DNA from: Sedimentisphaerales bacterium
Lineage (GTDB): Bacteria; Planctomycetota; Phycisphaerae; Sedimentisphaerales; SM23-30
Assembly: GCA_028281535.1 (NCBI GenBank)
Contig: JANQJS010000034.1
Location: 1 to 38,101 of the forward strand
Length of the DNA: 38,101 nucleotides
Direction: 5' to 3'
Position numbers and translations under genes: made by a program. Of the stretch, positions 5,709-30,326 are shown one piece after another. The first letter of the stretch is position 1. Each line of letters opens with the position of its first letter. Under the pieces are notes generated by a model, which saw only the letters and a program-made list of their open reading frames with translations, had not been told where the DNA came from and did no database searches.

Positions 5709-5848
5709 CAAACCTCCTAACCAATATACATTGAACAATTGTCGTAATCCCTTACTAGATATACCTTAAGACAACTAAAACATTTGGATTTTAATTGAAT
5801 TCCCCCCTGGCTACGGGTAAAATGTGTTTTTATCTATTGGGTCAACTT

Positions 5849-8468: not shown

Positions 8469-8482
8469 GGAATATAATATTT

Positions 8483-9613: not shown

Positions 9614-9621
9614 GGTAATCA

Positions 9622-13514: not shown

Positions 13515-13922
13515 TTATGGATTATAATAAACACGCTCCATAACAGCCCATGATTTATACCCTTTTAATGGCTGTTGCATAGGATCGCACATTTCAAGCC
13601 ATTTGATATTTTCTTCTTCTTTATCTAGCATGGCCATGTCTGCTTCAAAATCTTTGCCATGATACTCATAAAAACCAAATTCATACCAATTTCCATCATC
13701 TAGTTTATGAAGGAAAATATTGAAATTTTTCATATGATATTTTGAAAGAAGATGACGTACACCAGGATGATCGTCCGCGTGGACTTCTTTATATTTTTCA
13801 AGATATTCAGGCTTTAACTGAATAACCATACCTACTTTTTTGACATCTTTTTGAGCACATCCTAAACCAAAGATCATGACACACGCAGACAACAAGATGA
13901 CATTTAATAGACTTTTTTTCAT
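13515..13922 (-). CDS. Lipoprotein of the L-rhamnose mutarotase (RhaM, DUF718) family
   Basis: 135 residues from the ATG at 13922, chosen because AAAGGA lies just upstream and a lipoprotein signal follows (MKKSLLNVILL, with the lipobox ending FGLGC, Cys22). The remaining ~110 residues match the small alpha/beta-barrel RhaM family: VGMVIQLKPEYLEKYKEVH contains the Tyr44-x3-His48 pair, then NFNIFLHK, and the conserved end WLEMCDPMQQP. RhaM interconverts anomers of L-rhamnose in the cytoplasm; a lipid-anchored, exported form is unusual and hints at a sugar-binding or periplasmic role. It lies downstream of fructokinase and just before the cluster's terminator. Confidence 0.8.
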   Translation of the reverse strand: MKKSLLNVILLSACVMIFGLGCAQKDVKKVGMVIQLKPEYLEKYKEVHADDHPGVRHLLSKYHMKNFNIFLHKLDDGNWYEFGFYEYHGKDFEADMAMLDKEEENIKWLEMCDPMQQPLKGYKSWAVMERVYYNP

Positions 13923-13981
13923 ACCAATTCCTTTCATTCGGCACAAATATTTCGAATAATATAATACACTTTTTTACTTTT

Positions 13982-14884
13982 CTAAGCAATTTGCTTAAGT
14001 AGTTGGTCAGTTAAGTGCGGCATGGCACCTTCGTTCGAACAGACAAAACTCGCCAGCCGATTGGCCTTATCATTTATCTCATCGAGTGAATTACCATTCA
14101 TCAATCCTGTAACGACGCCGGCATTAAAGGAATCACCAGCCCCCACAGTATCAGCAACCTCTGTAGGGAATCCTGCGTGGAGCGACTCCCCCTCACGTGA
14201 GATCAAATGACTTCCAGCGCCACCTTTGGTTAATGCAATAAGTTCAAGCGGATATTTATCCATAAGTGCCTTCAAAAATTCATTTTCGGTATCAGGTAAA
14301 TTCAATAACTTAGCAATCACCGGCATTTCATCGTCACTGACTTTTAATACCGTCGCCAATGACATCATAGCATCAACCAAATCTGCACTGTAATACTCTA
14401 CTCGTAAATTGACATCATACAATCGTATGCACTCGTTGCGAGTAGCCTTTAAAAATCCTTGTATGTTTTCCTTTGAAACAGGACTTCTCTGAGCCAAAGT
14501 GCCATAACAAACGGCATCAACCGATTCGGCTAAAGCCTTGGCTTCTGGTGTTAAAGGAATAAAATCCCAGGCAACCCCTTCGTGTATCACAGGAGCAGTC
14601 ATTTTACCTTCGGCATCTAAACTAATATCAACACGTCCAGTCGGATGTTCAGAATCGATGTGTACGTACGTTTGATCAAGCCCGCGGCTATCCAACTCAC
14701 TTAAGATTTCTCGGCCAAGGTCATCGTCACCAATCGAACTAACGACATAACTCTTGCAACCAAGTGATTGAGCATGAAATGCAAAATTGGCTGGCGCACC
14801 GCCTATTTTTTTTCCTGTTGGAAAAACATCCCAAAGCAGTTCGCCCAAACCGGCAACCACTTTCTTTTCATTATCCTGAGCCAT
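13982..14884 (-). CDS. PfkB-family fructokinase
   Basis: 300 residues. The N-terminal GELLWDVFP and GGAPANFAFHAQSLG blocks and the C-terminal DTVGAGDSFNAG block, with catalytic base D251, are those of bacterial fructokinases (ATP + D-fructose to fructose 6-phosphate). A related PfkB sugar specificity cannot be excluded. AAAAGGATAGAG precedes the ATG. A promoter and a perfect inverted repeat lie directly upstream (14902-14954), so it can be transcribed independently of the sulfatase gene. The neighbouring GH32 enzyme would release fructose, giving this kinase a clear substrate. Confidence 0.9.
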   Translation of the reverse strand: MAQDNEKKVVAGLGELLWDVFPTGKKIGGAPANFAFHAQSLGCKSYVVSSIGDDDLGREILSELDSRGLDQTYVHIDSEHPTGRVDISLDAEGKMTAPVIHEGVAWDFIPLTPEAKALAESVDAVCYGTLAQRSPVSKENIQGFLKATRNECIRLYDVNLRVEYYSADLVDAMMSLATVLKVSDDEMPVIAKLLNLPDTENEFLKALMDKYPLELIALTKGGAGSHLISREGESLHAGFPTEVADTVGAGDSFNAGVVTGLMNGNSLDEINDKANRLASFVCSNEGAMPHLTDQLLKQIA

Positions 14885-14901
14885 AGATTCTCTATCCTTT
14901 T

Positions 14902-14954
14902 GTATTAGTCATGAGTAAACTAATACTATAATAGAGATCCTCGATAATTTCCAA
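14902..14954 (-). promoter_or_regulatory. Fructokinase promoter with overlapping operator-like repeat
   Basis: On the minus strand TTGGAA (14949-14954) and TATAGT (14925-14930) are 18 bases apart. The perfect inverted repeat GTATTAGT-N9-ACTAATAC (14902-14926) starts within the -10 box and covers the likely transcription start, the classical place for a repressor site. A related GTATTA sequence sits at the same place in the GH32 promoter. Confidence 0.5.
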
Positions 14955-15059
14955 AAGAAAATACAGAATATAATCACATATTTAAAAAGAAGTTACATAA
15001 AACGCAACCCAACATAATGCCACAGAATTCATGGTTAGCGAGACATCTTAGACTCATGA

Positions 15060-16745
15060 TCATAAACTAAATGTCACATTCGACTTATTATCATCAACTT
15101 GCTTACGTAAGCGTTTTAGCTCTGCTTTTAATTCCTTGACAACACCTTGGTAGGCAGGATCGTTATATAGATTGTTCATTTCCTGTGGATCTTTTTTAAG
15201 ATCATACAACTCCCATTCAGGAGTCGTTGCTTCATGGTAGGCTCCGTAAACTCCCAAGGCCTTTCCATAATAATAGATAAGCTTGTAACGATCCGTCCGC
15301 ACACCCATATGCGCAGCAACATTAAAATGTGGACGGTGCAGCCAATAGCGATAGTACATCGACTGACGCCAATCTTTAGGTTTTTTCCCGGCCAATAAAG
15401 GCTTGATACTCCGTCCCTGCATCTCCTCAGGAATTTTAATACCTGCAAAATCAAGAAATGTTCCAGCAAAATCACAATTAAGGACAATATCCTTATTAAC
15501 ACTACCAGGTTTTACCATTTTAGGATAACGCACCAAAAATGGCATCCGTAATGACTCTTCATACATAAATCGCTTGTCAAATAAGCCATGTTCACCCAGG
15601 AAAAAGCCTTGATCAGAGGTATATACAACAATGGTATTTTCGGCTAATCCAGCTTTATCAAGATAATCAAGCACACGCCCTACGTTTTGATCAATAGAAT
15701 AGACACATCGTAAGTAGGCTTTGATGTAATGTTGGTAGGTTTGCTTGCGTCTTTCTTTATCCGGCAGTGCTTTTAATTTTTCACGCAAGCCATCAAACTG
15801 ATTACCTTCTGTGGGATGCAAATAGAGACATTCATCCACATCAATAATTTGTGTATTACGTTTTAAAGCTTCGCCTCGATTAGAATAATCATCATGCAAA
15901 TTATCTGGTTCAGGTATATCAATATCCTTGAAAAGGTCTTTATGCTTAGGGTCATACTCCCACATATCATGAGGGGCTTTGTGCTGCAAAAGCATACAAA
16001 ACGGTTGATCTTTAGGACGGTTTTTTAGGAATTTTAATCCTAAATCAGTAATAACATCTGTGACATACCCTTTGATTCGTTTACCTTCCGGCTCATACTC
16101 TTCCTGCATTTTTTGATTATAGTGATCTGGACGTTCAATTTCATCCTCAGATTCATCCATCCAATGTTTTTTAACTTTCCAGTCAGGAATTAAATCCATA
16201 TCGATTTCACCCTCTTCATAGGGCTTGCGATTATTCCACCAGGGCATACCTGACTCAACAAAATCTGGATCAAAAAAGAGCCCTTGGCCTGGCATAACAT
16301 TGTAATAATCAAATCCGGTAGGCTGAGTGACCAAATGCCACTTACCGATCATTGCGGTATAATAACCACTTTCTTGAAGAAGTTTTGGAAAGGTTTTCTG
16401 AGATCCATCGAAAGGTTCAGCCAGTGAAAGGACACTATTTTTATGGCTATACTTTCCCGTCAATACACTCGCACGACTTGGAGAACATAGCGAATTGGTA
16501 CAAAAACAATTTTCAAATTTCATTCCCTCTTTCGCAAGCCGATCAATATGAGGTGTTTTGATGAGTTTATCACTATACGCACTCACCGCTGCTGAAGCAT
16601 GATCATCCGACATGATAAAAATAATATTCGGGCGTTGCTTTCCACTTTTAGCCAAAACCTCATTTAAGAAATAATTCGGTAAAGATGCTACCGCAAGCCC
16701 AGCACCAGTTGTTTTTAAGAAATCACGTCGCTTGATCATTTTCAT
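15060..16745 (-). CDS. Tat-exported S1-family sulfatase (formylglycine-dependent)
   Basis: 561 residues. The twin-arginine signal is KRRDFLKTTGAGLAVASLP (residues 5-23). The alkaline-phosphatase-like core begins at RPNIIFIMSDDHA, whose D47 and D48 are metal ligands. The catalytic motif CSPSRASVLTGKYS places Cys87, to be oxidised to formylglycine, at the start of C-x-P-S-R. Further sulfatase blocks are GKWHL, YTSDQGFFLGEHGLFDKRFM and YDLKKDPQEMNNL. It hydrolyses sulfate esters, most likely on a carbohydrate. Neighbours are an MFS sugar porter and GH32 upstream and fructokinase downstream. No sulfatase-maturating enzyme is in the window. The start is supported by GAAAGG eight bases upstream. 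Confidence 0.94.
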   Translation of the reverse strand: MKMIKRRDFLKTTGAGLAVASLPNYFLNEVLAKSGKQRPNIIFIMSDDHASAAVSAYSDKLIKTPHIDRLAKEGMKFENCFCTNSLCSPSRASVLTGKYSHKNSVLSLAEPFDGSQKTFPKLLQESGYYTAMIGKWHLVTQPTGFDYYNVMPGQGLFFDPDFVESGMPWWNNRKPYEEGEIDMDLIPDWKVKKHWMDESEDEIERPDHYNQKMQEEYEPEGKRIKGYVTDVITDLGLKFLKNRPKDQPFCMLLQHKAPHDMWEYDPKHKDLFKDIDIPEPDNLHDDYSNRGEALKRNTQIIDVDECLYLHPTEGNQFDGLREKLKALPDKERRKQTYQHYIKAYLRCVYSIDQNVGRVLDYLDKAGLAENTIVVYTSDQGFFLGEHGLFDKRFMYEESLRMPFLVRYPKMVKPGSVNKDIVLNCDFAGTFLDFAGIKIPEEMQGRSIKPLLAGKKPKDWRQSMYYRYWLHRPHFNVAAHMGVRTDRYKLIYYYGKALGVYGAYHEATTPEWELYDLKKDPQEMNNLYNDPAYQGVVKELKAELKRLRKQVDDNKSNVTFSL

Positions 16746-16816
16746 AGCCTTTCATCTAACTAGAAACATAGTGAAAAATTAGCTCAAAAATGCACTGTGG
16801 GGTAGTTGGAATATAT

Positions 16817-16845
16817 ATATTAGTAAATAACTTATATATTTACAA
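16817..16845 (-). promoter_or_regulatory. Predicted sulfatase promoter containing an inverted repeat
   Basis: TTGTAA and TAATAT are 17 bases apart on the minus strand. The spacer region carries the perfect inverted repeat GTAAATA-N7-TATTTAC (16823-16843), which overlaps the -35 box. It is a candidate operator, although the local AT-richness weakens the case. Confidence 0.4.
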
Positions 16846-16867
16846 GCTTTGTTTTTAGGATGAAATG

Positions 16868-16881
16868 CTGTTTAAAAACAG
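16868..16881 (-). terminator. Weak hairpin after the MFS gene
   Basis: CTGTTT-N2-AAACAG forms a short stem 22 bases beyond the MFS stop codon. There is no T-run, so it may attenuate rather than terminate. Confidence 0.25.
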
Positions 16882-16903
16882 TTTTAGATGACCTCAAAAG
16901 AAT

Positions 16904-18235
16904 TTATTCAATCCCCATTTTCTTTTGAATTTGTTCCAACGGTACTCCTTTTGTTTCAGGCATAATCATCAATACCCAAATCAATTGAAAAACCATACAT
17001 ACGCCATAGATCACAAAAACATAGCCACCAATTTTTGATGCAAATAGTGGAAAAGTCCAGGAAATCACCGCAGCCATAAACCAATGAGTGAAACTACCTA
17101 AAGCTTGTCCACGTGCTCGAACACGATTTGGGAATATTTCACTGATAAAAACCCAAATAACAGCACCCTGACCAAAACCATGCGATCCCATAAACACTAG
17201 CAAGCTAATTAAAACCAAAGTACCATCCTGATTAATAAAGGCATAAGCCGCGCCAGCTAAGCTAAGAATATATCCAATGGAACCAATCAGCATCAGCTGC
17301 TTGCGACCAAAATGATCGATAATGACCATTGCAAGAACCGTAAAAATAAGCATCACAAATCCTACAATGATCGATTGCAATAAGGCAGATTGTGAACCAT
17401 GGCCTGCCATCTGAAAAATATCTTTGGTGTAATAGACTAACGCATTGATGCCCGACAATTGATTAAACATCGCCATCATGACTGCAAGCATTATCGGCTT
17501 AGAATACATTTTGCAAAAAAAAGGTTCTTTCATACTATGGTGTTCAAGATCTAAAGAGGCTTGGATTTCTTTGAGATCATCTTCAATATTGCCAGAGTCT
17601 GAACCACATTTTATCAACACCTCGCGTGCTTCATCTAGTCTCCCTTTTGACATGAGCCAACGTGGACTACGTGGATTCATGGTTAATAAAATGAAAAAGG
17701 CCGCAGCAGGGATGGCTTCGACCCCAAACATCCAACGCCACTCTATGATTCCTAAATTAAATGATCCAATTAGATAATTTGACATATAGGCAAGCAAAAT
17801 TCCAAATACAATATTAAACTGGACAAAAGCGACAAGGCGTCCTCGAAAACGAGCAGGTGATATTTCTGCCGTATACATCGGTGCCACCACTGATGCCCCG
17901 CCAACACCTAATCCACCTATAAATCGGAAAAATAAAAAAGAATACCAGTCCCATGCCAAAGCACTTCCTAGTGCGGAAATAAAATAGAGTGCTGCAAGTA
18001 CAAATAATGTTTGGCGACGGCCATAAATATCACTCGGACGCCCGACGATAATAGAACCAATGATGGTACCTATCAAAGCAATGGCAACGGTAAACCCTAA
18101 TGAAAAATCACTTAATTGGTAGATATCACGTAACCAGCCTGTCGTACCAGAAATAACGGCAGTATCAAAACCAAATAGTAGACCACCCAAAGCCGCTACA
18201 ACGGTACTACGTAATAAATACCCACTCATTCGCAT
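16904..18235 (-). CDS. MFS sugar porter (SP family)
   Basis: 443 residues with 12 predicted membrane helices. Sugar-porter signatures are clear: LGGLLFGFDTAVISG in helix 1, RPSDIYGRRQT between helices 2 and 3, AEISPARFRGRLVAFVQFNI, QLSGINALVYYTKDIF in helix 7, DHFGRKQL, SEIFPNRVRARGQALG, and PETKG at the end. It probably imports a monosaccharide with protons. Lying 62 bases downstream of the GH32 gene and on the same strand, it most likely takes up fructose or a short fructan. AAGGGG precedes the start. The sugar is inferred from context only. Confidence 0.92.
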   Translation of the reverse strand: MRMSGYLLRSTVVAALGGLLFGFDTAVISGTTGWLRDIYQLSDFSLGFTVAIALIGTIIGSIIVGRPSDIYGRRQTLFVLAALYFISALGSALAWDWYSFLFFRFIGGLGVGGASVVAPMYTAEISPARFRGRLVAFVQFNIVFGILLAYMSNYLIGSFNLGIIEWRWMFGVEAIPAAAFFILLTMNPRSPRWLMSKGRLDEAREVLIKCGSDSGNIEDDLKEIQASLDLEHHSMKEPFFCKMYSKPIMLAVMMAMFNQLSGINALVYYTKDIFQMAGHGSQSALLQSIIVGFVMLIFTVLAMVIIDHFGRKQLMLIGSIGYILSLAGAAYAFINQDGTLVLISLLVFMGSHGFGQGAVIWVFISEIFPNRVRARGQALGSFTHWFMAAVISWTFPLFASKIGGYVFVIYGVCMVFQLIWVLMIMPETKGVPLEQIQKKMGIE

Positions 18236-18297
18236 ACCTTAACCCCTTAAAATTTTCTGTTATAATTATTATGAAATACGAACTATAAAAGAAATGG

Positions 18298-20139
18298 TTA
18301 TTCCCACATGGATTTTAATTCATAGACCTCCAGCTGATTTACTTTAGTTTTTCTTGCTTTAGAAAATACTTTGATCTCTGAAGGTTGACCAACCAAATAC
18401 GCCCCCATTGGAAAATAATAGTTCCCATGATTTGCAAAAACCTCGACGAAGGTTCGATCGACTAATATTTCAATGAATATTTTTCCATTCTCTGGCTCAA
18501 GCTCTGCCTTATGAGGTATTGAAAATCTGGGCAATTCATTCTGTAAAGATCGCCTAAAAGCATCTGAGTAATCATCAAAATCAAAACGGTGATCGGGCCC
18601 AAGACACACTAATTCATTATTTTGAAGATGATAAGAAATCTTAAAACCATTAATCACTAATCCAAAAGACATTAACGCATGCCTTTCTTTAATATCATCT
18701 TCATCCTCTTCTTCGTCAACAGCTTCATTTTCATTAATGATTTCATCCATAGAAAATTCAGCCTTTATATGCAATAAATCCCCTTGAACACCTTTCAAGA
18801 TTTTAGTTCCAGTCACTCCATTATCAAACGTAAAACGATGTTTTTTCTTATGCAGCTTCTCAATTTCGCGTACAGGCTCTGCAAACATTCGCACTCCTTT
18901 ATCGGTTGAACGAAGTGACAATTCTACAGGAAACGTAATGAGCTGATTAAAAGGCATTCCTGGCAAAGGCACTGTCCCCCATCCCATCATAATACGACGT
19001 CCATCTTCTTCGGGAATATCACTAAATGTTTGCGAGGCATAAAATGCATTGCCATAGTTAAACTTGATTTCTTCGGTTTCCGGTTTGAAGGCTTCACCAT
19101 CAAATGAACCTATATAATACTCTCCAGACGCGCCATAAGTGATCCATTTCATATTTTGTTTATTTCCATCGACAGGCAACTCAAACAACTCCGGACATTC
19201 ATGAAAACTTTTTAAACGACTGGTTTTTGTCCACTCTTTTAAATCATCAGAAGTAAAAAAATCCATCTCATTTTCTTCAACATAAAGAACCATGACCCAT
19301 TTTTTCGTGGGCTCATGCCAAATCACTTTAGGGTCTCGACTTGCCCCTCTAATATGACCAATAATGGGATTGTCTTCATACTTGGTAAATGTTCTACCCC
19401 GATCATTACTATAAGCAACCGCCTGAGTAAATTTCTCTCCTTTGGACCAGGGATTCGCTCCTCCGGCATAGGTATAGAAACAAAGTATCGGCTTTTCTTT
19501 TCCCGCTTGAAACCCACTGACATTCTTGTGATCAACAACAGCTCCCCCCGAAAAAATGGTTCCATATTGATCTGGATGAATCGCATCTCCCAATTCCTCC
19601 CAAAAAACCAGATCCTTACTGACCGCATGCCCCCATGTCATATTACCCCATGGCCAACCATATGGATTATGCTGATAAAACATGTGATATTCACCATCAT
19701 AATAAACCAATCCATTGGTATCATTCACCCAACCACGCTTTGTTGTATAATGGAATTGCGGACGCAACTTTTCTTTATATAGTTTATCTTGACCTGGAAA
19801 GGTATTCCCCTGAAATATGGCTGCGAAACCTTTATCGACCCCCTCATTTAAATCTTCAACTGTTAATTTAACTATTTTCCCATGAAATTCTTTTAGCTCG
19901 AGATAAACCCAATAATCAGGCTCTGTTTGATTTGAAAGACGCATTTGCATTTGACGCATCCGCTTGCCATCAACCGTCAAATCTAACACATTCATAGGAG
20001 CATCATAGCTAACGGGTAAATTCAAATACTTTTTTGAACAATTAAATTCACGGGAGGAAGATGTAAGCTGTGAAGCATTTAAGGTGCAACAAAATAGAAC
20101 AATAAAAACAAGTGCGATTTGATTTCTCAGTAAGGACAT
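18298..20139 (-). CDS. Secreted GH32 fructan hydrolase (levanase/inulinase/invertase type)
   Basis: 613 residues. A signal peptide (NQIALVFIVLFCCTLNAS) precedes an N-terminal beta domain (about 30-115) resembling DUF4980, then the five-bladed propeller and a C-terminal beta-sandwich. Catalytic residues are D140 in WVNDTNG (nucleophile), D269 in RDPK (transition-state stabiliser) and E314 in HECPEL (acid/base). The nucleophile motif reads NDTNG where most family members have NDPNG. An acidic insert (NEAVDEEEDEDDIKER) interrupts the C-terminal module. The enzyme releases fructose from beta-fructosides; levan, inulin and sucrose cannot be told apart by eye. GGAGAT lies nine bases before the ATG. 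It opens the GH32-MFS unit. Confidence 0.94.
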   Translation of the reverse strand: MSLLRNQIALVFIVLFCCTLNASQLTSSSREFNCSKKYLNLPVSYDAPMNVLDLTVDGKRMRQMQMRLSNQTEPDYWVYLELKEFHGKIVKLTVEDLNEGVDKGFAAIFQGNTFPGQDKLYKEKLRPQFHYTTKRGWVNDTNGLVYYDGEYHMFYQHNPYGWPWGNMTWGHAVSKDLVFWEELGDAIHPDQYGTIFSGGAVVDHKNVSGFQAGKEKPILCFYTYAGGANPWSKGEKFTQAVAYSNDRGRTFTKYEDNPIIGHIRGASRDPKVIWHEPTKKWVMVLYVEENEMDFFTSDDLKEWTKTSRLKSFHECPELFELPVDGNKQNMKWITYGASGEYYIGSFDGEAFKPETEEIKFNYGNAFYASQTFSDIPEEDGRRIMMGWGTVPLPGMPFNQLITFPVELSLRSTDKGVRMFAEPVREIEKLHKKKHRFTFDNGVTGTKILKGVQGDLLHIKAEFSMDEIINENEAVDEEEDEDDIKERHALMSFGLVINGFKISYHLQNNELVCLGPDHRFDFDDYSDAFRRSLQNELPRFSIPHKAELEPENGKIFIEILVDRTFVEVFANHGNYYFPMGAYLVGQPSEIKVFSKARKTKVNQLEVYELKSMWE

Positions 20140-20197: not shown

Positions 20198-20305
20198 CAC
20201 CTTTCAGATAAGATAATAGCCAACAAACGCTTATTTTGACATAAATTCTATGATATCGTTAAAATTTTACTTAAATAAATGTCAATACGACTATTACATA
20301 AAAAA

Positions 20306-20338
20306 AGCCCCAGGCTAACAGACATTAGCTCCAGGGCT
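20306..20338 (-). terminator. Intrinsic terminator after the dehydrogenase gene
   Basis: The imperfect stem AGCCC/GGGCT, with inner CTAA/TTAG pairs, is followed on the minus strand by a run of seven T (20300-20306). It separates the dehydrogenase from the GH32 unit. Confidence 0.7.
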
Positions 20339-20364
20339 CTATTATATCTAAGATATATACCAGC

Positions 20365-21402
20365 TTAGTTTAAATCGATGATCACTTTCAGGCTTCTTTC
20401 ACCTTCTTCATCAATGTAGTCATAAGCATCCTTATATTGTTCGAATGGGAAACGCTTGGTAATGAGCGGTTCGCAGAGAACATCGCCTGACGAAATCAAT
20501 TCGACGGATTTTTCATAGTCTTCGTGTTTGTACATCAGGGTACCGATCAGGGTTAGTTCACGGTCCTGCAGGCCTGCCAAGTCAACAACTGGTGGTTTTG
20601 TGAAACAAGCAACGACGACAATTTCGCTACCTTTGTTAATCGTTTCGACGATGCCATCCAGGGCTACTTGGACACCGGCACATTCGAATGCCAGATCATA
20701 ACCATCATCGCCAAAAACACGTTTGACGCCATCGGCGAGAGATTCGTTTTTAGAATTACTGACGCCATCTATTTTGCATTCAGTGGCCTTTTCCAGTCGG
20801 AAATCACTGATATCGGTGATCATGACTTTTTTAGCACCATAAGCTTTAGCAACCTGAGCCACCAAATTACCAATAGGCCCAGCACCTGTCACCAAAACAT
20901 TTTTACCTTTAACTTCAGTGGCACGGTTCATGGCATGCACAGTCACTGCAACCGGCTCAACCATGGCACCCTGATCATAGGTAAAATTATCTGGCAGAGG
21001 AATGACGCGATCTTCGGTGGTAATGAAATAATCTTGAGCCACACCAGGAGCCTGGAAACCTTCTACGCGAAGTTTATTGCAAATGTGGTAATCGCCACGA
21101 TCACATGGTGGACAACTGGGACAGACAATCTGAGGACGTGCGGTTGCCTTCATGCCGGGTTTGACTTTAGTGACGCCTTCACCGACTTCGACAATTTCAG
21201 CGGAATATTCATGGCCCTGAATCAGCGGGTACATTTCCGGCGGTACAGTGGCATGTGTGCCATGAAAAACATGAATATCTGATCCACAGACACCGATTTT
21301 TTTAATATGAAATTTAACTTGCCCAGGGCCAACGGTGGGCTCATCAACGCTATCATTGAACTCAATTTCACCGGGTTTGGTCATCACTGCCTGTCGCATC
21401 AT
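20365..21402 (-). CDS. Zinc-dependent alcohol/polyol dehydrogenase (sorbitol dehydrogenase-like MDR)
   Basis: 345 residues of the medium-chain dehydrogenase family. Catalytic zinc ligands are C39 (GVCGSD), H64 and E65 (GHEYSAE). The structural zinc lobe is C94-x2-C97-x2-C100-x7-C108. The NAD(P)-binding fold is marked by VLVTGAGPIGNLVAQVAKAYGA. The family includes sorbitol, xylitol, L-idonate and threonine dehydrogenases, and substrate cannot be decided by eye. Next to fructan and fructose genes, a polyol-to-ketose reaction (for example sorbitol to fructose) is plausible. It has its own terminator and is divergent from the symporter gene. The ATGATG start leaves a one-codon ambiguity. Confidence 0.9.
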   Translation of the reverse strand: MMRQAVMTKPGEIEFNDSVDEPTVGPGQVKFHIKKIGVCGSDIHVFHGTHATVPPEMYPLIQGHEYSAEIVEVGEGVTKVKPGMKATARPQIVCPSCPPCDRGDYHICNKLRVEGFQAPGVAQDYFITTEDRVIPLPDNFTYDQGAMVEPVAVTVHAMNRATEVKGKNVLVTGAGPIGNLVAQVAKAYGAKKVMITDISDFRLEKATECKIDGVSNSKNESLADGVKRVFGDDGYDLAFECAGVQVALDGIVETINKGSEIVVVACFTKPPVVDLAGLQDRELTLIGTLMYKHEDYEKSVELISSGDVLCEPLITKRFPFEQYKDAYDYIDEEGERSLKVIIDLN

Positions 21403-21909
21403 CGTTTTACCTCATCTTTTCTAACTAGTGGTTATTCACTTTACTAAACTGTAAACAGCTCTCTCTGAATGGCTTACAACGGGGTTGCCGAAATCACCTA
21501 AATCCGTGAAAGTCTATTGTTTACAGTATTTTACCATTTTTTCCTAAGAGGTATCATCATATCACTTTTTGATGATTGGATCAAATACTATTGCCCTGCT
21601 CCAATTGAAATACTCAATTTGCAGCCCACGAACGCAGATTTTTTGCTGGACAGAAATTCAATCCTATGCTAAAAAAATACCCCTAAGCATTTGCTATATT
21701 TGGAGATATAAAGTTTTGAGACCTAACTCCCCTATAGCACATGGCAAATCGTCGAACAATACAGTAAGTAGTTAAGAGTGTGTAGTGTCAGAAAAATATA
21801 TCTCTGGCTTTTCCAGTGTAGGATATGAGATCTTTTTTGAGCCAGTGGGCAGATATATTCATAACAAAATCATGGAGCAAGTTCGTAATAAATTGGAAAG
21901 GACAGAAGT
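21403..21909. other. Divergent intergenic region, dehydrogenase / symporter
   Basis: About 500 bases between two divergent genes with no convincing coding sequence. It holds a distant inverted repeat (21448-21527). A ribosome binding site (GGAAAGGACAG) precedes the symporter ATG. A small reading frame at 21569-21775 has no recognisable product. Confidence 0.4.
21448..21527. promoter_or_regulatory. Two 10-bp inverted half-sites, candidate looping operator pair
   Basis: ACTGTAAACA (21448-21457) and its exact reverse complement TGTTTACAGT (21518-21527) are 60 bases apart, upstream of the dehydrogenase and within the divergent region. Exact 10-bp complementarity at this distance could mark two sites for one regulator. 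Confidence 0.35.
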
Positions 21910-23631
21910 ATGTTTGAAGGACTAAGTACATTTTCTTCTATGTTAGCCCAATCAAATAATTTCAGTACATTAGATACTGGAATTGTTATCGGGTACATTA
22001 TTTTTATATGTGCCCTGGGTGTTTGGGTTGGTTTCAAGAAAAACACATCGAGCTCAGATCTCTTCTTAGCAGGACGATCTCTTAGCTGGCCAGTTATTGG
22101 TATCTCATTGTTCTGTGCCAATATCTCTTCAATCCACCTCGTTGGCCTTGCTGCCGAAGGTTACAATACAGGGATGCCTGTCGGTAACTTTGAATGGGGT
22201 GCCGCATTCTGCTTGATCATACTTGGTCTCGTTTTCGCTCCTTTCTATTTCAGAAGTAAACTTCAAACTCTCCCTGAATATGTTGAAAAACGTTACAGTG
22301 CTGCGACGCGTACGATCCTGGGTGTTATTTTCATTTTATCCGCATTGCTTGTCCATATTGGCATCAGCCTATATGCGGGGGCAAAACTGATGAATGAATT
22401 CTTTAACATCAGCATTAACATGTCCATTATTATGATTTCAGTTGTCACTGCCGTATACACCGTTGTGGGTGGTCTTAAAGCGGTTATGATCACCAACGTT
22501 GTCCAGGTGATTATTCTTCTTGCAGGTTCGATCTCTTTAACTTATTTGGGCTGGCAACGACTTGAAGACATTGGTATCACCAGCTGGGAGCAACTTAAAA
22601 CATATGTTTATCCAGATATTGAGCCAGGTGTGCTAACCCCCGTCGTAAATGAAACAACCGGCAAACGTAATGGGTTTTCATGGCTCTGTGTGCTTGTCGG
22701 CTATCCTGTTCTAGGTATCTGGTATTGGTGTACCGACCAAACCATTGTGCAAAATATCCTGGCAGCCAAGACCGAAAAAGATGGTCGTGATGGTGCGATC
22801 TTTGGTGGTTTTATGAAAATTCTACCTGTGTTCTTAATGGTTCTACCAGGTGTTATGGCTTACGCCCTATTCAAAGACAAAATTGGCACAGACAACAATG
22901 CTACCCTAACGGTACTTATGCAGGAGTTATTACCGTCAGGCTTTTTAGGTTTATTTGCTGCTGGACTCATTGCGGCTTTGATGAGCACCGTTGCCGCAGC
23001 ATTAAACAGTACTGCAACACTTGCCTCATCTGATATTTTGAAACGATTAAAACCAGATACTCCAGATAAAACACTGGTTACAGTCGGCCGTATTACTTCT
23101 GTCATTGTTATTTTACTGGCGATGGCATGGTCAACCCAGGGAGCTCGTTTTGATAGTATTTTTGAAGCCATTAATAAAATTCCAATGATGTTTGCCCCTG
23201 CTATTACGACTATTTTCTTAATGGGTGTCTTTTGGAAACGTGGAACCAAGCAAGCTGCAATCCTAACCCTCTTACTCAATATGGGTGTTGGTATTGTTTA
23301 TCTACTCTACGACATTCCAATCATCCAAACAACACAAGATGAAACAGGAAAATGGGTAGGACTATTTGCTTACGGATGGGACCTTCCATTTATGTTAGTT
23401 GGTGGTATATTCTTTGCAGGCTGTTTAATATTCTATATAGCCGTCAGCTTGATGACACCAGCACCCGATCCAGCAAGCCTGAAAAATTTAGTTTGGGAAC
23501 ACCCACTAGAATTTATCAAACAAGGAAAAATCGAAGGTATTACAGACCCAAGAATTATGGCATTGCTACTATTAATAGTTATGGCTATTCTTTATTCTGT
23601 TATGGGCTTCTATACCCCTCCAACACCCTAA
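21910..23631 (+). CDS. SSS-family (SLC5/SGLT-like) sodium:solute symporter
   Basis: 573 residues with about 14 hydrophobic helices. Family landmarks are YIIFICALGVWVGFKK, the DLFLAGRSLSWPVIGISLF segment following helix 1, the SSIHLVGLAAEGYNTGM region, LPEYVEKRYSAATRTILG, and GLFAAGLIAALMSTVAAALNS, the sodium-site helix of SGLT-type proteins. It couples sodium entry to uptake of a sugar or related solute. Its position beside a polyol dehydrogenase and the fructan genes suggests a sugar or polyol. GGAAAGGACAGAAGT precedes the ATG. A strong bidirectional terminator follows. Confidence 0.93.
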   Translation: MFEGLSTFSSMLAQSNNFSTLDTGIVIGYIIFICALGVWVGFKKNTSSSDLFLAGRSLSWPVIGISLFCANISSIHLVGLAAEGYNTGMPVGNFEWGAAFCLIILGLVFAPFYFRSKLQTLPEYVEKRYSAATRTILGVIFILSALLVHIGISLYAGAKLMNEFFNISINMSIIMISVVTAVYTVVGGLKAVMITNVVQVIILLAGSISLTYLGWQRLEDIGITSWEQLKTYVYPDIEPGVLTPVVNETTGKRNGFSWLCVLVGYPVLGIWYWCTDQTIVQNILAAKTEKDGRDGAIFGGFMKILPVFLMVLPGVMAYALFKDKIGTDNNATLTVLMQELLPSGFLGLFAAGLIAALMSTVAAALNSTATLASSDILKRLKPDTPDKTLVTVGRITSVIVILLAMAWSTQGARFDSIFEAINKIPMMFAPAITTIFLMGVFWKRGTKQAAILTLLLNMGVGIVYLLYDIPIIQTTQDETGKWVGLFAYGWDLPFMLVGGIFFAGCLIFYIAVSLMTPAPDPASLKNLVWEHPLEFIKQGKIEGITDPRIMALLLLIVMAILYSVMGFYTPPTP

Positions 23632-23661
23632 GCCTTAACAAGAAACCTTGAATAAAAATAA

Positions 23662-23691
23662 AACCCGCAAGACAAAATAGTCTTGCGGGTT
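23662..23691. terminator. Strong bidirectional intrinsic terminator
   Basis: AACCCGCAAGAC pairs perfectly with GTCTTGCGGGTT around a 6-base loop. T-runs follow on the plus strand, and A-rich sequence gives T-rich sequence on the minus strand. It serves both the symporter and the convergent LamG gene. Confidence 0.9.
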
Positions 23692-23738
23692 TTTTATTTC
23701 TATTAATAATCCTAATTCTTCGTGAGAAAACTTACTGA

Positions 23739-26393
23739 CTACGGCAGTTTGCCACCAGGTACAAATTCAATTAGTAATGGTTCTGTAGCATTGATGTCTA
23801 ACCAAATGATACAATCCGTGGTCCTGAGTCCTTTGCGATAACCGACTCGATACTCTTTACCTTTGCTAATTGGTTTATTATTTATCTTTAATTCAACATC
23901 CCGATGCCCCCAATTTTCTATTACAAGTGCCGGCTCACGAACAGGGGTATCCGAATTAGCGACAAGCTTTATGTTCAATGGCACTCGTGTTTTTTTATTT
24001 AATCGGGAAATTTTATAAGCACTTTCTGTCGGGTCATAACCCTGATTTTCATAAAACCCAGTCGCCATCTTACCACCCAATAACAATAAGACAGGTGGGT
24101 CAATCCACGATTCAGCAATATCTATCAATTGCGTGATAGGTTTATCCGTTAGCCCAACCAACATAACCTTCGTCAAGTGTTGCTTATCAATATTATAATA
24201 TGGCCAGTAAAATCCACCAAAACTTATAGGCCAAGGCCTGGATTGACCAGGAACAATATCGCTTCTAGTTCGATCTTGAGCCACAGGCCATAAATCCAAT
24301 TCCTCAACATCTGGATCAAACATATTAAACTCATAAAAAGGCATAAGCGTACTATTATTTTCATTCATAATAATAGAGTATGGCTTATACTTTGATTTTA
24401 AATTTATCATTTGAATGCTAGGATTAAATATAGAGGCATCCAGTGTATTTGAGACAAAACGTTTCTGCTGGCTATCATATTTCAAAATCCTATCCGTTTC
24501 TTCAGACATATTCATAACAGTAACAAATTCGCTCTCAATAACATCATCGATGTTAGTCCCTGGAAAAAATATCATCATCGGATCATGATAATAGAGCAGT
24601 TCATTCGAATTCTCATCTATTGGATTTAAGTATTCACTCAGCTTTGAATACCAAAAGACAATTTTTCGAACACACAGCCCATTTGGATAAATCGTATAAA
24701 ACTCATCTACCCAACTGCCCCAATCTGTTTTGTCTTCAGGCCAAGTAAAATGATAATTCTCGTCAATAGGCAAATACCGCCAATGTACAACACAACGTGC
24801 ATCAGAATTTTCTAAAACTTGTACATTCGAATAACGGCTTTGGGTATCATTTAACACAGAATCATTACGTACCACCACAGAGCCATGCGTAAACAACAAC
24901 TCATTTTCGGTCACCCAATAGGGCATACGGGAAAGACCTCGCCAGAAGATCATTTTATAATCAAACCGATCAAATTGAATCACCAGGTCATTTCCAGATA
25001 TGGATCGCCACGTTGCATCCCATTTCAAACCATATTTCAACGATGTTGGATATGCCCCAAATGGCCCTTTACCTTCGGGTCCCACAGGAAAAGTTAATGG
25101 GATTCCTGAATGAAATTGAAGAATTTCAGATTCCCATTTTATCAATTCATTTAAGTTAAGTTGATCAATTGATTTAATTCCTGAAAGATACTCTTTCACA
25201 CGCTTAGCCAATTTACCATATCGATCAACATATGCTAACCATTCTTGATCTGATTCATCTTTTTCTTCACTTAAATAATTAATTTCATTTCGAACAAAAG
25301 ACATAAGGCCCAAGAGAACATCATTATAGATATAGGTTGAATGAAATAACTCATGAATTTTTTTTAATTTTTCAAAAGAGTTAATTTCCTCAAATAATGT
25401 TTCCTCATAATTTTCATAGTCCAAAATATTTTTGATAAATGGTTGATACCGACTCCCCAGTTCATCAAATCTGCCAGGCTCCCAATCATCTTGCCAAATT
25501 TTACTATTGATTTCACGGGCGATTTGTCGTTGTATGGCCGGGGTATTAAAATCATTTTGAATCAGAGAAAAGATTAAGCTTGAATCATCCTGATTAAATT
25601 CTAAATGATTTAATGAAACATAATCAAAGACCTGATCAAAATTTAATGCTTTTCCTTTTTTACCATCGACATAGGGCGCTCCTTTTAAGCTGCCATGATT
25701 TTCATTACCAGAAAAATCAAAAACATCAGAATCAAATTTCCAATACCCCACAAGCCCCTTCGTCGGCCTGCTCGATAATTGAGAGAGCTCTAAAATTTCC
25801 TGATCTGTCAGCCTCCGATTATAAATCCCAAGTTCATCTAATATCATATCGCTGGTCATAGCATTTTCTGGAAAATCCAGGGTACCATCACCTATTTTTG
25901 GGATATGACCTTTAATATCTGGTTTTGCCATGTTATTAAATGACCCAGAACCAATCTTTTCTCCATCAAGAAAAAAATCATAAGGCTCTATACCTGTCAA
26001 AGCAACATGATGCCATTGACCATCATTAATATCCTGGTCAGTGATAATGTTCCCTACCCAACCAACATCATAGGTTAATTTGCCTTCGAAAATAAAAAAG
26101 CATTTCCCCTGGATATCCCATCTTTCAGGTGCTTTGTTAAATATAACACCATAGTCCGAAGTTGTCTTGATCCAGGTTTCTATGGTAAATTCTGAAGCAC
26201 CAAAATCTGGCAACTGCATTTTTGGGATATTTACACCATTTTGCCGCATCCGTGTTTCACGTGAAACAATCAACGTTTCAAGAAAACTATCCTTCTTATC
26301 ATAATACGCTGGACTTTGAGCTTGCAAAGCTTGCCCAACAGACAAACTGACAAACAAGAATGACAATACAATTAATTTTTCTGAAATTTTCAT
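23739..26393 (-). CDS. Large secreted LamG-domain protein with unknown C-terminal domain (paralogue 1)
   Basis: 884 residues from the ATG at 26393, which places a signal peptide (MKISEKLIVLSFLFVSLSVG) at the N-terminus. The frame is open upstream to 26534, but that part has no signal or homology. A LamG/concanavalin-like domain follows (FTIETWIKTTSDYGVIF ... DGQWHHVALTG ... YNRRLTDQEI). Next is an isolated first half of another LamG (GLVGYWKFDSDVFDFSGNEN). Then comes a helical, charged stretch of about 170 residues absent from its paralogue. The C-terminal ~400 residues (IFWRGLSRMPYWVTENELLF, LENSDARCVVHWRY, DWGSWVDEFYTIYP) are shared with the protein at 27932-30115. The function is unknown; glycan binding or degradation is a guess from context. 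Confidence 0.8.
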   Translation of the reverse strand: MKISEKLIVLSFLFVSLSVGQALQAQSPAYYDKKDSFLETLIVSRETRMRQNGVNIPKMQLPDFGASEFTIETWIKTTSDYGVIFNKAPERWDIQGKCFFIFEGKLTYDVGWVGNIITDQDINDGQWHHVALTGIEPYDFFLDGEKIGSGSFNNMAKPDIKGHIPKIGDGTLDFPENAMTSDMILDELGIYNRRLTDQEILELSQLSSRPTKGLVGYWKFDSDVFDFSGNENHGSLKGAPYVDGKKGKALNFDQVFDYVSLNHLEFNQDDSSLIFSLIQNDFNTPAIQRQIAREINSKIWQDDWEPGRFDELGSRYQPFIKNILDYENYEETLFEEINSFEKLKKIHELFHSTYIYNDVLLGLMSFVRNEINYLSEEKDESDQEWLAYVDRYGKLAKRVKEYLSGIKSIDQLNLNELIKWESEILQFHSGIPLTFPVGPEGKGPFGAYPTSLKYGLKWDATWRSISGNDLVIQFDRFDYKMIFWRGLSRMPYWVTENELLFTHGSVVVRNDSVLNDTQSRYSNVQVLENSDARCVVHWRYLPIDENYHFTWPEDKTDWGSWVDEFYTIYPNGLCVRKIVFWYSKLSEYLNPIDENSNELLYYHDPMMIFFPGTNIDDVIESEFVTVMNMSEETDRILKYDSQQKRFVSNTLDASIFNPSIQMINLKSKYKPYSIIMNENNSTLMPFYEFNMFDPDVEELDLWPVAQDRTRSDIVPGQSRPWPISFGGFYWPYYNIDKQHLTKVMLVGLTDKPITQLIDIAESWIDPPVLLLLGGKMATGFYENQGYDPTESAYKISRLNKKTRVPLNIKLVANSDTPVREPALVIENWGHRDVELKINNKPISKGKEYRVGYRKGLRTTDCIIWLDINATEPLLIEFVPGGKLP

Positions 26394-26970
26394 TTGGCTT
26401 ATTTTCAGAATTCGACCCTTATAATCAAACATTAAGACATTAAACATCAACACACTTCTCCAAATCCTAAGGTCAGCTTTCATGCCCTTATTGCGAAATG
26501 TACATGAAAACCGTGACATATGTTTTTTCGACATCGTGACCTTGAAACTACACTACTAATTTTTAAACCACAGCTAATTCAATAGATATGAGCATTATAA
26601 GGACTCACATCGAGGATCCAATTTGGATAATTTGTTCGGGTAAATATATTATCGGACAATAACTTTACTTTAATTTTGGCTAGTACTACAAAGAGCAAAA
26701 CACGAAGTGCGCACTCTGAGTCAGTATTAATTTATGCGTGAATAGATATTGCATAGGTCATGCAATAGGTGACTATCTTCATAAGACTCCACTGTGAAAA
26801 AAATCTTACAAAAATTCTGTATATTAATACACATCTTTTTCACTATTTTAGCATTTTTTTATCCCTAATGCAAGGATTTGATTCTACCCAGAAACCCACT
26901 TTTTAACGAATCATGCAATACTATCAGGAAAATACCTATAGCCTGGAGATCCATACAAATACCATAAATT
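26394..26970. other. Long intergenic region with two palindromes
   Basis: About 580 bases upstream of the LamG gene with no convincing coding sequence; the first 140 bases are open in the LamG frame but unlikely to be translated. It contains the perfect palindromes AGTGC-GCACT (26706-26715) and TATTGCAT-N5-ATGCAATA (26747-26767), which may be operators. No terminator with a T-run was found for the mutarotase gene. Confidence 0.35.
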
Positions 26971-27825
26971 CTATTGTGATAAATCATATATTTTCTCCAT
27001 AATTTGAATAACTGGGTTCCCCTGTTTATCTGTATAGGGTACATCAATGGGACCAACTATTTTTCCCCATTTTTGAAATATGGGCCTAATATCTATCACA
27101 TCCCAACTGGAATCCCAATCAAATTCATCAGAAACTTGGTAAAATTCAAAGGTTCGATTTTCAACACAATAAATTTCTAAATCCACAATACCGATTTCTT
27201 TCAAGCCATGAGTAATTTCAGGCCACGCCACTCCCATGGCATGCAAATCTTTGTACCGTTGGATTTCTTTTGGATCTTGAACTAACTCCCTTGATTCAAT
27301 AATTCGACGCGTAGGCTGACTCAAGACACGTTTTTCATACCCATCCAGCTTATTATTTGCTATCTGATCCTGATCGATCTCGTAAACTCGTTCTAAGAGA
27401 AACCATGGCATATCTTTTGTCGATGGAGTCAATGGCGCATAATTAATGTTTGTTTCAGCTTCCCAAGCTTGATAAGAAACATTAGTTTCCAACGCATTTT
27501 GTGTCGATGTAAAATCAAACTCGAGTGATGTTTCTAAGACCGCCAGTAACCGTTGGCGGTATATATATACCTCTAAATCATAAACACCAAGACTTTGCAA
27601 ATATTCAACCACTTCTTGCCAAGCTTGAGATTGAAAAGAGGCTTTCATTTTCTCTTTGGCCTGAGGCGATTTTTCTAAATCGGCCGTCATGCAGTAACGT
27701 TTAAAATATAGCGGTTTATCCTTTCGCAATGAGTCTGAACAACCAGACATTATCATGAGGAATAAACCAAAACCAATTGCAACGCTTACCCCACCATTTT
27801 TTAAATCTTTATTATTCATTATCAC
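26971..27825 (-). CDS. Lipoprotein with two fused L-rhamnose-mutarotase-like domains
   Basis: 284 residues. A lipoprotein signal ends in IMSGC (Cys29). Domain 1 (about 40-150) and domain 2 (about 170-282) both follow the RhaM/DUF718 pattern: RY/ESRE start, long helix, LGVYDLEVYI or IGIVDLEIYC strand, an FDxxS segment and a closing LERVYEI or MEKIYDL. In domain 2 the Y-x3-H pair of the family is kept (Y191, H195); in domain 1 the equivalent positions are M60 and F64, so this half is probably inactive. It sits between the two LamG paralogues, 106 bases after one and behind a terminator. A lipid-anchored sugar-binding or anomer-converting role is inferred. Confidence 0.75.
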   Translation of the reverse strand: MIMNNKDLKNGGVSVAIGFGLFLMIMSGCSDSLRKDKPLYFKRYCMTADLEKSPQAKEKMKASFQSQAWQEVVEYLQSLGVYDLEVYIYRQRLLAVLETSLEFDFTSTQNALETNVSYQAWEAETNINYAPLTPSTKDMPWFLLERVYEIDQDQIANNKLDGYEKRVLSQPTRRIIESRELVQDPKEIQRYKDLHAMGVAWPEITHGLKEIGIVDLEIYCVENRTFEFYQVSDEFDWDSSWDVIDIRPIFQKWGKIVGPIDVPYTDKQGNPVIQIMEKIYDLSQ

Positions 27826-27860
27826 ACTTTCTTACTTAATAATAGATTTATAGATAGAAA

Positions 27861-27891
27861 AGTAGCCTGGCTATTAAATGACCAGGCTACT
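27861..27891 (-). terminator. Intrinsic terminator between LamG paralogue 2 and the mutarotase lipoprotein
   Basis: AGTAGCCTGG pairs perfectly with CCAGGCTACT around 11 bases. On the minus strand a short T-run follows. It lies 41 bases beyond the LamG stop. Confidence 0.75.
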
Positions 27892-27931
27892 AATTTTTTA
27901 AAATAAAATGCTCAACTTAACTTAAGCAAAA

Positions 27932-30115
27932 TCAGTCATCATCATCTTCCGCTTCGGCAGTAATCGTGACAGTGACTTTCTTCTCGCTTTCGATTTTAAG
28001 CCATAAAATCAAATCATCTTCACCAAATGCTAAACGATGTCCACTTCTGTAATGTTCACCATACTCGGCTTCTTTGCCATCTATTTTGATTTCAAATTCA
28101 CGGTCACCATACCCTTTGATCACCATACCAGGATTCACAACAGGAGACTTAGCGCTACCATTAATTTCAAATGTCATGCTTTCACCAGGCTTCTTCGCCG
28201 TTAAATGAAACGCCATGTCACGTGGGTCATAACCATGGCTAAGAACATCGCCTTTTTTAACAGATAATGTAGCAGGATAAGACCAACTCTTAGATAATGG
28301 GATCAGTTCCGTAACAGACTTATCCGTCATACCATGCAGATGAATTTTGGTAGCAGAATTATCCGTCATTTGATATTCACCCCAGAACCAGTGAGCTAGC
28401 GAAGCATGTGCTGCACGGTCATCATGCATACACCAACGACCATCCGTTGGACGAGGTGCTACAGGCCAGTGATTCCACCATGGAAAGACAGAAAACTCTC
28501 TGCGAATTTCACCAGCATAGATATCCATGGATTGTGGCTTACCATGAGGGATTTTATCTTCAGTGATATCCTGAGGACGCACAATGGAAAATGGGCGATA
28601 TTTCGATTTCGTGTTCACCAATTGGAGTGAAATATTTTTTGGATCTTTGGGCCAAAGTGGTGGAGGAGCATGTTCCCAGGAATAGGTATGCTCATCACCA
28701 TCAATATTCGCAACAGACAATGCACCATACTCTAAAATATCTTCAGGACGCTGACCTGGACTTAGAACCATCATACTTTCTTGCCACTCATGTTCAGCTC
28801 TTGGAGCATTACTGTAAATGGTATCAGAACGCACACCCACCATATCAGGATAAATGGTAAAGGTCTCTTCTACCCAATCACCCCATCCGGTCGTTGGATC
28901 TTGAAAAGCAAATGTGCCCCAATTATCGATCAGGCCATAACGCCACATCACAACGACACGGGCATCATTATTTTCAACGATCTGAACACGTGAATACAAT
29001 GTTCTTTTATCTGACATAGGTTCGCAGCTACCCCGTTCGTTCCAACCTTCATTGAAACCGTTATTATACCAAATACCATTTTCGGTTACCCAGTGTGGAA
29101 TATAGCTAGTGCCACGCCATAGAATAAATCGACAAGGCGTTTGATCAAATAGCACAACCAAATCAGCATTATCACCAACATGCCAAGGGGCATCCCAGGA
29201 AGGGTAATATTTTAATGTCGTTGGAATCACACCAAATTTACCGCTACTTGGAGGACCGATAGGCAATTTACGCACAGGTAATTGCGGCTTAGCTGATGGT
29301 TTAGCTGCTTTGTAAGCTTTAGAAATATCGCTACTGCTTAAAGCATCATGATATAGCTTTACTTCATCGATAATACCATCCAAGTGCGTATTCACCTCCA
29401 TGGTACCTTCAGGACGAATCGTACCATAAGGACGATGCTTCATACGACTTTTACCTATAAGCAATGTATCGCTGAAATATTCTTCTTCATCCATTGGTTT
29501 AAATGGCTGTGTCAATTTAGTCGTACCAGCCAATTCACCATTAATATAGACTTTCAAAACACCATCTTCATGGACACCTGCTAAATGCTTCCATTCTCTT
29601 AATGGCAGATGTTCTTTGGAAACGACTTGTTCGTATTTACCTTCAGTAGCCACTTTAAGCAGTAAACGACCATTGGCATCTAAACCAAAAAAGAAACCAT
29701 TAAAGTAGCCATCTTCAACGGCACGCTGATGATCCACAATAGGACACCAATGTTTGGGATAGGCTCCTAAAGCCACCCATGCTTCAACGGAAAAATCACC
29801 TGTCGTACGAGGAACTTCATCAACTTCCACTTGAACAAAGGCGGTATAACCATCTAAAAGTACAGCTTTATTTTTTACACCATCAACAATTTTATAATAT
29901 TTACCTTGTAATTCGACACTGCTCCCTGAAACTTCTTCTTTGATAAAAGAAAATTTCTCTTTGGGAATAAATGTTTCACCACGAAACATCTCAACCTTGC
30001 GATTCTCTACTTCAACCTCATCAAATGACCAATGTGCTACCGGATCCGCTGCTGAGCTGATTTGAGAAAAGCTTAGCGCAATGGCAACACAAAATATTAA
30101 CCATTTTTTCAACAT
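27932..30115 (-). CDS. Large secreted LamG-domain protein with unknown C-terminal domain (paralogue 2)
   Basis: 727 residues from the ATG at 30115, supported by AAAAGGAGAA upstream and by the signal peptide MLKKWLIFCVAIALSFSQIS. A LamG domain follows (VAHWSFDEVEVENRK, FSVEAWVALGAYPKHW, LREWKHLAGVHEDGVLKVY, LDGIIDEVKLYHDAL). A proline-rich linker leads to the ~430-residue domain shared with paralogue 1: GVIPTTLKYYPSWDAPW, FILWRGTSYIPHWVTENG, VENNDARVVVMWRY, GWGDWVEETFTIYP. The tail is acidic (EDDDD). The shared domain recalls secreted proteins of marine polysaccharide-degrading bacteria, and I considered a polysaccharide-lyase relationship, but no catalytic residues can be assigned. Export and domain order are secure; function is not. 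Confidence 0.82.
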   Translation of the reverse strand: MLKKWLIFCVAIALSFSQISSAADPVAHWSFDEVEVENRKVEMFRGETFIPKEKFSFIKEEVSGSSVELQGKYYKIVDGVKNKAVLLDGYTAFVQVEVDEVPRTTGDFSVEAWVALGAYPKHWCPIVDHQRAVEDGYFNGFFFGLDANGRLLLKVATEGKYEQVVSKEHLPLREWKHLAGVHEDGVLKVYINGELAGTTKLTQPFKPMDEEEYFSDTLLIGKSRMKHRPYGTIRPEGTMEVNTHLDGIIDEVKLYHDALSSSDISKAYKAAKPSAKPQLPVRKLPIGPPSSGKFGVIPTTLKYYPSWDAPWHVGDNADLVVLFDQTPCRFILWRGTSYIPHWVTENGIWYNNGFNEGWNERGSCEPMSDKRTLYSRVQIVENNDARVVVMWRYGLIDNWGTFAFQDPTTGWGDWVEETFTIYPDMVGVRSDTIYSNAPRAEHEWQESMMVLSPGQRPEDILEYGALSVANIDGDEHTYSWEHAPPPLWPKDPKNISLQLVNTKSKYRPFSIVRPQDITEDKIPHGKPQSMDIYAGEIRREFSVFPWWNHWPVAPRPTDGRWCMHDDRAAHASLAHWFWGEYQMTDNSATKIHLHGMTDKSVTELIPLSKSWSYPATLSVKKGDVLSHGYDPRDMAFHLTAKKPGESMTFEINGSAKSPVVNPGMVIKGYGDREFEIKIDGKEAEYGEHYRSGHRLAFGEDDLILWLKIESEKKVTVTITAEAEDDDD

Positions 30116-30326
30116 ACAATTTCTCCTTTTCGTCAAGAATGATATGGGCATTCAAGACATGCTTAATTCTATAATTCTATACAACACATTTTTTTGTACA
30201 TACGAACCGTTAGCCTAACTCATTTTAATTACCCTGTCTAATATTTATTAAACGCTAACGCAAAATGTAGTCTTTCCTCGACATAACACACTAAAAAAGA
30301 ATGATTTAGAAACTACAAACATAAAA

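Follow-up and report, generated by a model that had tools for sequence, protein, structure and literature searches.

A GH32, sulfatase and fructokinase gene cluster in a Sedimentisphaerales bacterium and its possible role in the use of a sulfated heteropolysaccharide bearing fructose

Among described loci for the use of fructans or sulfated glycans, the levan polysaccharide utilisation locus (PUL) of Bacteroides thetaiotaomicron (BT1754-BT1765) and the porphyran PUL of Bacteroides plebeius are the closest to the gene cluster reported here. This cluster lies on a 38,101-nucleotide contig of a Sedimentisphaerales bacterium (JANQJS010000034.1, assembly GCA_028281535.1), analysed over its entire length and called here the window; the draft genome amounts to 4.44 Mb. 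It encodes a GH32 beta-fructosidase, a sugar porter of the major facilitator superfamily (MFS), an S1 sulfatase, a PfkB-family fructokinase and a RhaM-type lipoprotein (Table 1). The levan PUL likewise has GH32 enzymes, an MFS importer and a predicted fructokinase, but it depends on SusC/SusD and no sulfatase is named in the cited passages (PMC7782687), whereas a Pfam scan of 10 window genes found neither SusC nor SusD. In the porphyran PUL, the cited sections describe an exo-acting pair, BpS1_11 and BpGH29, and S1_11 and alpha-L-galactosidase-type GH29 genes are likewise adjacent in relatives of the window; those sections mention neither GH32 nor fructokinase (PMC12316285). By contrast, GH29, GH16 and GH86 are absent from the window operon, and no GH29 and no GH16/GH86 porphyranase was found in the 10 genes scanned, the rest of the genome not having been searched for these. 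A sulfatase is also joined to GH32 in SCARR_04167 of a Kiritimatiellales strain, an S1_7 sulfatase with a GH32 domain, in which the cited passage sees a hint that the sulfatase, too, may be specific for fructans; this is however a single fusion gene, and both its sulfatase subfamily and its phylum differ from those of the window (PMC6388578). Finally, in marine PULs combining GH144 with a sulfatase, the added sulfatase was similarly taken, in the part cited, to imply that a known glycan also exists in an as yet unknown sulfated form, although these concern beta-1,2-glucan and Bacteroidetes (PMC6499787).

In the direction of transcription, on the minus strand, a gene for a zinc-dependent polyol or sugar dehydrogenase (ADH) is followed by a hairpin and then by the GH32, porter, sulfatase, kinase and RhaM-type genes. 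Because the hairpin, which resembles a terminator and is matched in folding by 1 of 200 shuffled sequences, separates the dehydrogenase gene from GH32, the operon is placed as starting at GH32. The gaps between its five genes measure 62, 158, 175 and 35 bases, so these genes likely form a single operon (13515-20139), and the two longer gaps could be promoter sites. A scan reported no terminator-like site in these gaps, but it also overlooked the hairpin. A first-pass annotation had described the GH32, porter, sulfatase and fructokinase genes as lying in series on one strand, and Pfam confirmed all four on the minus strand; the first gene of the span, the RhaM-type gene, had been overlooked. 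The accompanying statement that no other glycosidase is present holds by Pfam for the 10 genes scanned, with the caveat that two flanking LamG proteins have a domain whose model resembles polysaccharide-active enzymes. The window GH32 is the sole GH32 of the genome, which has 15 sulfatases above the Pfam cut-off in its 4.44 Mb; the chance of finding a sulfatase within 6 kb of it is therefore about 5% (Poisson probability about 0.05, an estimate that ignores both sulfatase clustering and genome kinship). Taken alone, the pairing in the window is mildly surprising, and relatives are therefore needed to decide.

GH32 matches at E ≤1e-50 were present in 71 of the 161 genomes of the order that were surveyed. 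The best places of the GH32 searches gave 67 neighbourhoods, in which 65 GH32 rows were scored; the GH32 tree has 63 rows, with 3 of the 65+1 GH32 rows outside it. A sulfatase was found within 6 kb in 18 of the 65 rows. For comparison, 762 sulfatases in 55.6 Mb (10 genomes) lead to an expectation of about 0.19 per GH32, a rough guide given the kinship of these genomes and their choice after the linkage had been noticed. The linkage is most pronounced in one GH32 clade, in which 9 of 11 members have a sulfatase, on the same strand and no more than 65 bases away in 8 of the 11. This clade carries a recurrent cassette, GH29 - S1_11 - heparinase II/III-like lyase - second sulfatase - GH32, which is complete in loci L064 and L080, lacks the lyase-like gene in L063 and is partial in L067, L068, L070, L071 and L072. 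Its second sulfatase is weakly related to solved enzymes (148 bits). The L064 GH29 scores highest against exo-alpha-L-galactosidases (341 and 338 bits), with fucosidases reaching 269 or less; the 341-bit chain, 7snk, bears the table label alpha-L-fucosidase and is named BpGH29 in the cited section of the porphyran study (PMC12316285). GH39 is found, besides GH29 and the lyase, among the genes linked to GH32-sulfatase pairs in relatives. In two single-contig genomes (G146 and G147), MFS and kinase genes stand beside GH32 together with a third sulfatase type. In a tree of 97 S1_11-like proteins, the GH32-linked members fall in three separate parts.

The window GH32 matches both the GH32N beta-propeller and the GH32C domain, has a signal peptide recognised by eye, and is nearest among PDB structures to exo-inulinases and invertases. 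In GH32 enzymes the W-x-N-D-x-N-G motif holds the nucleophile, RDP serves the transition state and E-C holds the acid/base. These motifs are intact (WVNDTNG, RDP, ECP), with a threonine in the first where proline is usual; serine or threonine is likewise found there in most GH32 of the order. The closest relative (64% identity, genome G051) belongs to a locus, L136, that combines GH32 with S1_11, RhaM, LamG and alpha-L-fucosidase-family (GH29) genes. The window protein further carries an acidic insert (EAVDEEEDEDD, residues ~465-490) that is missing in all 4 relatives compared. In the single-contig genome G143 (L095), GH32 appears to be spread over two frames with 66% and 59% identity to that of the window, as a frameshift or a pseudogene. 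In L074 (G029), a DUF2961 gene lies beside GH32 and a gene for an arylsulfotransferase-domain protein adjoins (5013-7340, 7698-9839); DUF2961 is presumably the GH172 family, which includes alpha-fructofuranosidases.

The sulfatase has the formylglycine motif C/S-x-P-x-R (CSPSR, residues 87-91), and a gene for the formylglycine-generating enzyme is present. Its previously proposed export by the twin-arginine translocation (Tat) pathway agrees with the RRDFLK motif seen by eye, although the PF10518 score (21.4 bits) is slightly below the cut-off of 22.7. Its nearest solved relatives are eight chains at 382-463 bits, the next group being at 176, and the best four are 5g2v, 7lha, 7snj and 7p24 (399-463 bits). 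Of these, 5g2v is an N-acetylglucosamine (GlcNAc)-6-sulfatase and 7lha an exo-L-galactose-6-sulfatase; we take 5g2v, 7lha and 7p24 to be the S1_11 enzymes BT4656, BpS1_11 and BT3177. A recognition triad, D390/R392/H479, is kept in the window enzyme, its residues having been assigned from the alignment, and D-K-R-H is present in 93 of the 97 S1_11-like rows of the alignment. According to the relevant passages of a review, the histidine of S1_11 enzymes binds O3, the aspartate and arginine bind O4, and the identical triad serves L-galactose in aquatic members (PMC10154612). Over a 35-residue stretch around the histidine, the window sulfatase is identical to 7lha at 18 positions and to 5g2v at 13. 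The cassette sulfatases show the 7lha-type L-galactose-6-sulfatase signature more fully, whereas one GH32-linked S1_11, in L074, resembles the GlcNAc-6-sulfatase. As judged from its sequence, the window sulfatase resembles an exo-6-O-sulfatase of the GlcNAc or L-galactose type. This resemblance, the retained triad, the proximity of the cassette GH29 to exo-alpha-L-galactosidases and the porphyran-type S1_11 of the cassette all suggest that the sulfate is most likely on a pyranose and not on fructose.

Regarding the kinase, fructokinase 2qhp scores 216 bits and the next PfkB structure 74; the score against the NCBIfam fructokinase equivalog is below the cut-off (PRK09434, 95 bits versus 450). 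The 2-keto-3-deoxygluconate kinases are far below 2qhp, which lowered that reading of the gene. Kinase relatives split into a group linked to the dehydrogenase and to an SSF sodium/solute symporter and a mostly MFS-linked group, and the window kinase falls, with weak support, in the former. A close relative in L089 has a GH32 gene at 5.5 kb. Orthologues of the window sulfatase (63-68% identity) were found in four genomes (G077, G070, G040 and G041). A fructokinase orthologue follows after 69 bases in G077 and after 11 bases in both G040 and G041, and in these same three genomes a second sulfatase, closest in G041 to S1_15-type enzymes, precedes the orthologous one. Relatives of the RhaM-type gene adjoin GH32 in L111 and lie within the GH32 locus L136 of G051, and a further one is found in L267, where FGGY kinases and an aldolase of class II are also encoded. 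In the window gene, translation may in fact begin at an ATG 24 bases further in.

We favour, with belief and doubt evenly divided, a catabolic role of the operon in the use of a sulfated heteropolysaccharide, or its oligosaccharides, bearing beta-fructofuranosyl units, with the sulfate on a pyranose. In this scheme the S1_11-like sulfatase would act outside the cytoplasm and take the 6-O-sulfate off a terminal pyranose, L-galactose being the likeliest and GlcNAc or glucose the alternatives, and GH32 would free fructose. The porter would bring fructose into the cell, where the kinase would convert it to fructose-6-phosphate, and the RhaM-type lipoprotein may hasten the mutarotation of a released sugar. 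The neighbouring LamG, RhaM, SSF and ADH genes (20365-30151) probably act on other sugars of the same polymer. A single sulfated heteroglycan with fructofuranosyl units is the simplest reading that fits all the results, the main alternative being two substrates.

Several results weigh against a single substrate. The exact arrangement of the window operon occurs once among the 161 genomes; in the two other genomes of its own family with a strong GH32 match, no match to the window sulfatase, porter or kinase was found nearby; and the cassette S1_11 belongs to a different subclade from the window sulfatase. In 47 of the 65 GH32 rows no sulfatase lies within 6 kb, many of these being on contigs that end early. 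Outside the order, a sulfatase was found within this distance in 1 of 13 GH32 loci (15 were fetched, and the GH32 of L268 and L281 dropped out at gene calling), and 80 S1_11 loci taken from many other phyla included no GH32 or fructokinase. No GH32 was found near the sulfatase orthologues in G077, G070, G040 and G041, and since three of these are accompanied by the kinase, the sulfatase seems to travel more with the kinase than with GH32. This pairing, attested by G077, G040 and G041, makes a composite operon the main rival, together with the single occurrence of the arrangement and the weakly supported position of the window kinase among SSF/ADH/sulfatase-linked rather than MFS-linked kinases. 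In such an operon GH32, porter and kinase would serve a neutral fructan or sucrose and the sulfatase, having arrived with the kinase, an unrelated sulfated glycan. Separate MFS-kinase(-GH32) units do occur; however, the genes of the window lie in tight same-strand succession, and GH32 is linked independently to sulfatases of three types elsewhere in the order. Both argue against two substrates, and we consider this rival rather unlikely.

The first-pass annotation had proposed a substrate with both beta-fructosyl units and sulfate esters, in the form of a natural fructan sulfated on its fructosyl residues. The union of the two finds some backing in the recurrence of GH32-sulfatase linkage within the order, but sulfate on a fructan agrees poorly with a sulfatase whose relatives are GlcNAc-6- and L-galactose-6-sulfatases. 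Such a fructan would account for the combination of GH32, sulfatase and fructokinase and for the absence of other named glycosidases from the operon, and the GH32 endo-levanase BT1760 is described in the cited excerpt as cleaving chemically sulfated levan (PMC8945012). The S1_11-like assignment, with its pyranose-recognition triad retained, and the GH29, GH39 and heparinase-like lyase linked in relatives nevertheless make it improbable; the portions of the literature searched on sulfated fructans yielded chemically sulfated levan or inulin and no natural one. A sulfatase subfamily for an unrelated substrate had been named beforehand as what would speak against a shared substrate. The S1_11-like assignment comes near to this, an objection that loses some of its force because GH32 occurs alongside L-galactose-type enzymes in the loci of relatives. 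It is very improbable, in our view, that the PfkB enzyme acts with the dehydrogenase on another ketose or an L-galactose product, with GH32 as an accessory: in L248 an ADH-kinase-SSF unit does adjoin GH95 and GH78 without GH32 within the 19 kb read, but the 216 bits to 2qhp against 74 for other PfkB structures and the GH32 gene 5.5 kb from the close kinase relative in L089 point to a fructokinase. A fructosylated sulfated chondroitin-like substrate of the E. coli K4 type was kept as background only, no chondroitin-type lyase having been found among the window genes scanned.

Upstream of the operon, the dehydrogenase has its best PDB matches among xylitol, threonine and sorbitol dehydrogenases. 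Modules of ADH, SSF and kinase genes were found in L137, L244, L245 and L248, with LamG genes also present in L137, L245 and L248 and with a sulfatase, besides GH95 and GH78, near that of L248. A relative of LAMG2 (844 bits) directly precedes GH32 in L136. Judging by the RhaM and ADH/SSF neighbours, the polymer around the fructose part would be rich in L-sugars. For the C-terminal domain of the LamG proteins (~440 residues), the window member gave no Pfam match and PDB no sequence relative below E 0.6; the domain was seen at about 25 further places in the genome. Modelled alone (pLDDT 90.8), this domain resembles the PL26 exo-rhamnogalacturonan lyase (Z 14.8, rmsd 3.5, 239 residues) and the GH174 endo-1,3-fucanase (Z 13.8, rmsd 4.1, 257 residues), and is perhaps a new polysaccharide-active family, a shared fold alone being no proof of function or membership. 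An earlier LamG model (pLDDT 69.7), which gave mainly lectin-domain matches, was set aside. Farther along the window, 30386-31246 encodes a protein in which TIGR02595 identifies a PEP-CTERM sorting domain, and 31672-32544 is similar by eye.

Table 1. Features of the window operon and its flanks
Feature	Position	Strand	Evidence
RhaM-type (L-rhamnose mutarotase family) lipoprotein, last operon gene	13515..13946	-	PF05336 60 bits, lipobox by eye
PfkB-family fructokinase (predicted)	13982..14884	-	PF00294 153 bits; 2qhp fructokinase 216 bits
Tat-type S1 sulfatase, S1_11-like, predicted exo-6-O-sulfatase of pyranose	15060..16745	-	PF00884 184 bits, SGSH_C 204 bits
MFS sugar porter	16904..18235	-	PF00083 358 bits; TIGR00879 354 bits, cut-off 237.8 exceeded
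GH32 beta-fructosidase, predicted exported, N-terminal DUF4980-like region; operon gene 1	18298..20139	-	PF00251 226 bits, PF08244 41.5 bits, DUF4980 29.4 bits
Terminator (hairpin + U run) between ADH and GH32	20300..20340	-	sequence read, fold -21.2 kcal/mol, z -4.31
Zn-dependent polyol/sugar dehydrogenase, separate transcript	20365..21402	-	PF00107, PF08240
SSF sodium/solute symporter; in relatives part of ADH-fructokinase module	21910..23631	+	PF00474
LAMG1, secreted LamG protein, unnamed C-terminal domain	23739..26534	-	PF13385, domain alignment
Double RhaM-type lipoprotein	26971..27825	-	PF05336, two stretches
LAMG2, secreted LamG protein, unnamed C-terminal domain	27932..30151	-	PF13385

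The usual view sets fructans, regarded as neutral polymers of storage or of a matrix, apart from sulfated glycans. A repeated linkage of GH32 to 6-O-sulfatases, in planctomycetes whose order is known to include sulfatase-rich members, would suggest a polymer that joins both. We think it possible rather than probable that Sedimentisphaerales break down a sulfated heteropolysaccharide of a class not yet described, containing 6-sulfated L-galactose and beta-fructofuranosyl side units, by means of the conserved GH29-S1_11-lyase-like-sulfatase-GH32 cassette, of which the window operon would be a fructose-catabolic variant. Strong-acid hydrolysis destroys fructose, and such a polymer could therefore have escaped notice. 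It might belong to the matrix of cyanobacteria or algae; the cited part of one study names fructose among the sugars that cyanobacterial exopolysaccharides may contain, although the hydrolysates of that study, as reported there, were without it (PMC12555021). The cassette offers a concrete test object, and its enzymes could reveal fructose that acid hydrolysis conceals in sulfated extracellular polymers.

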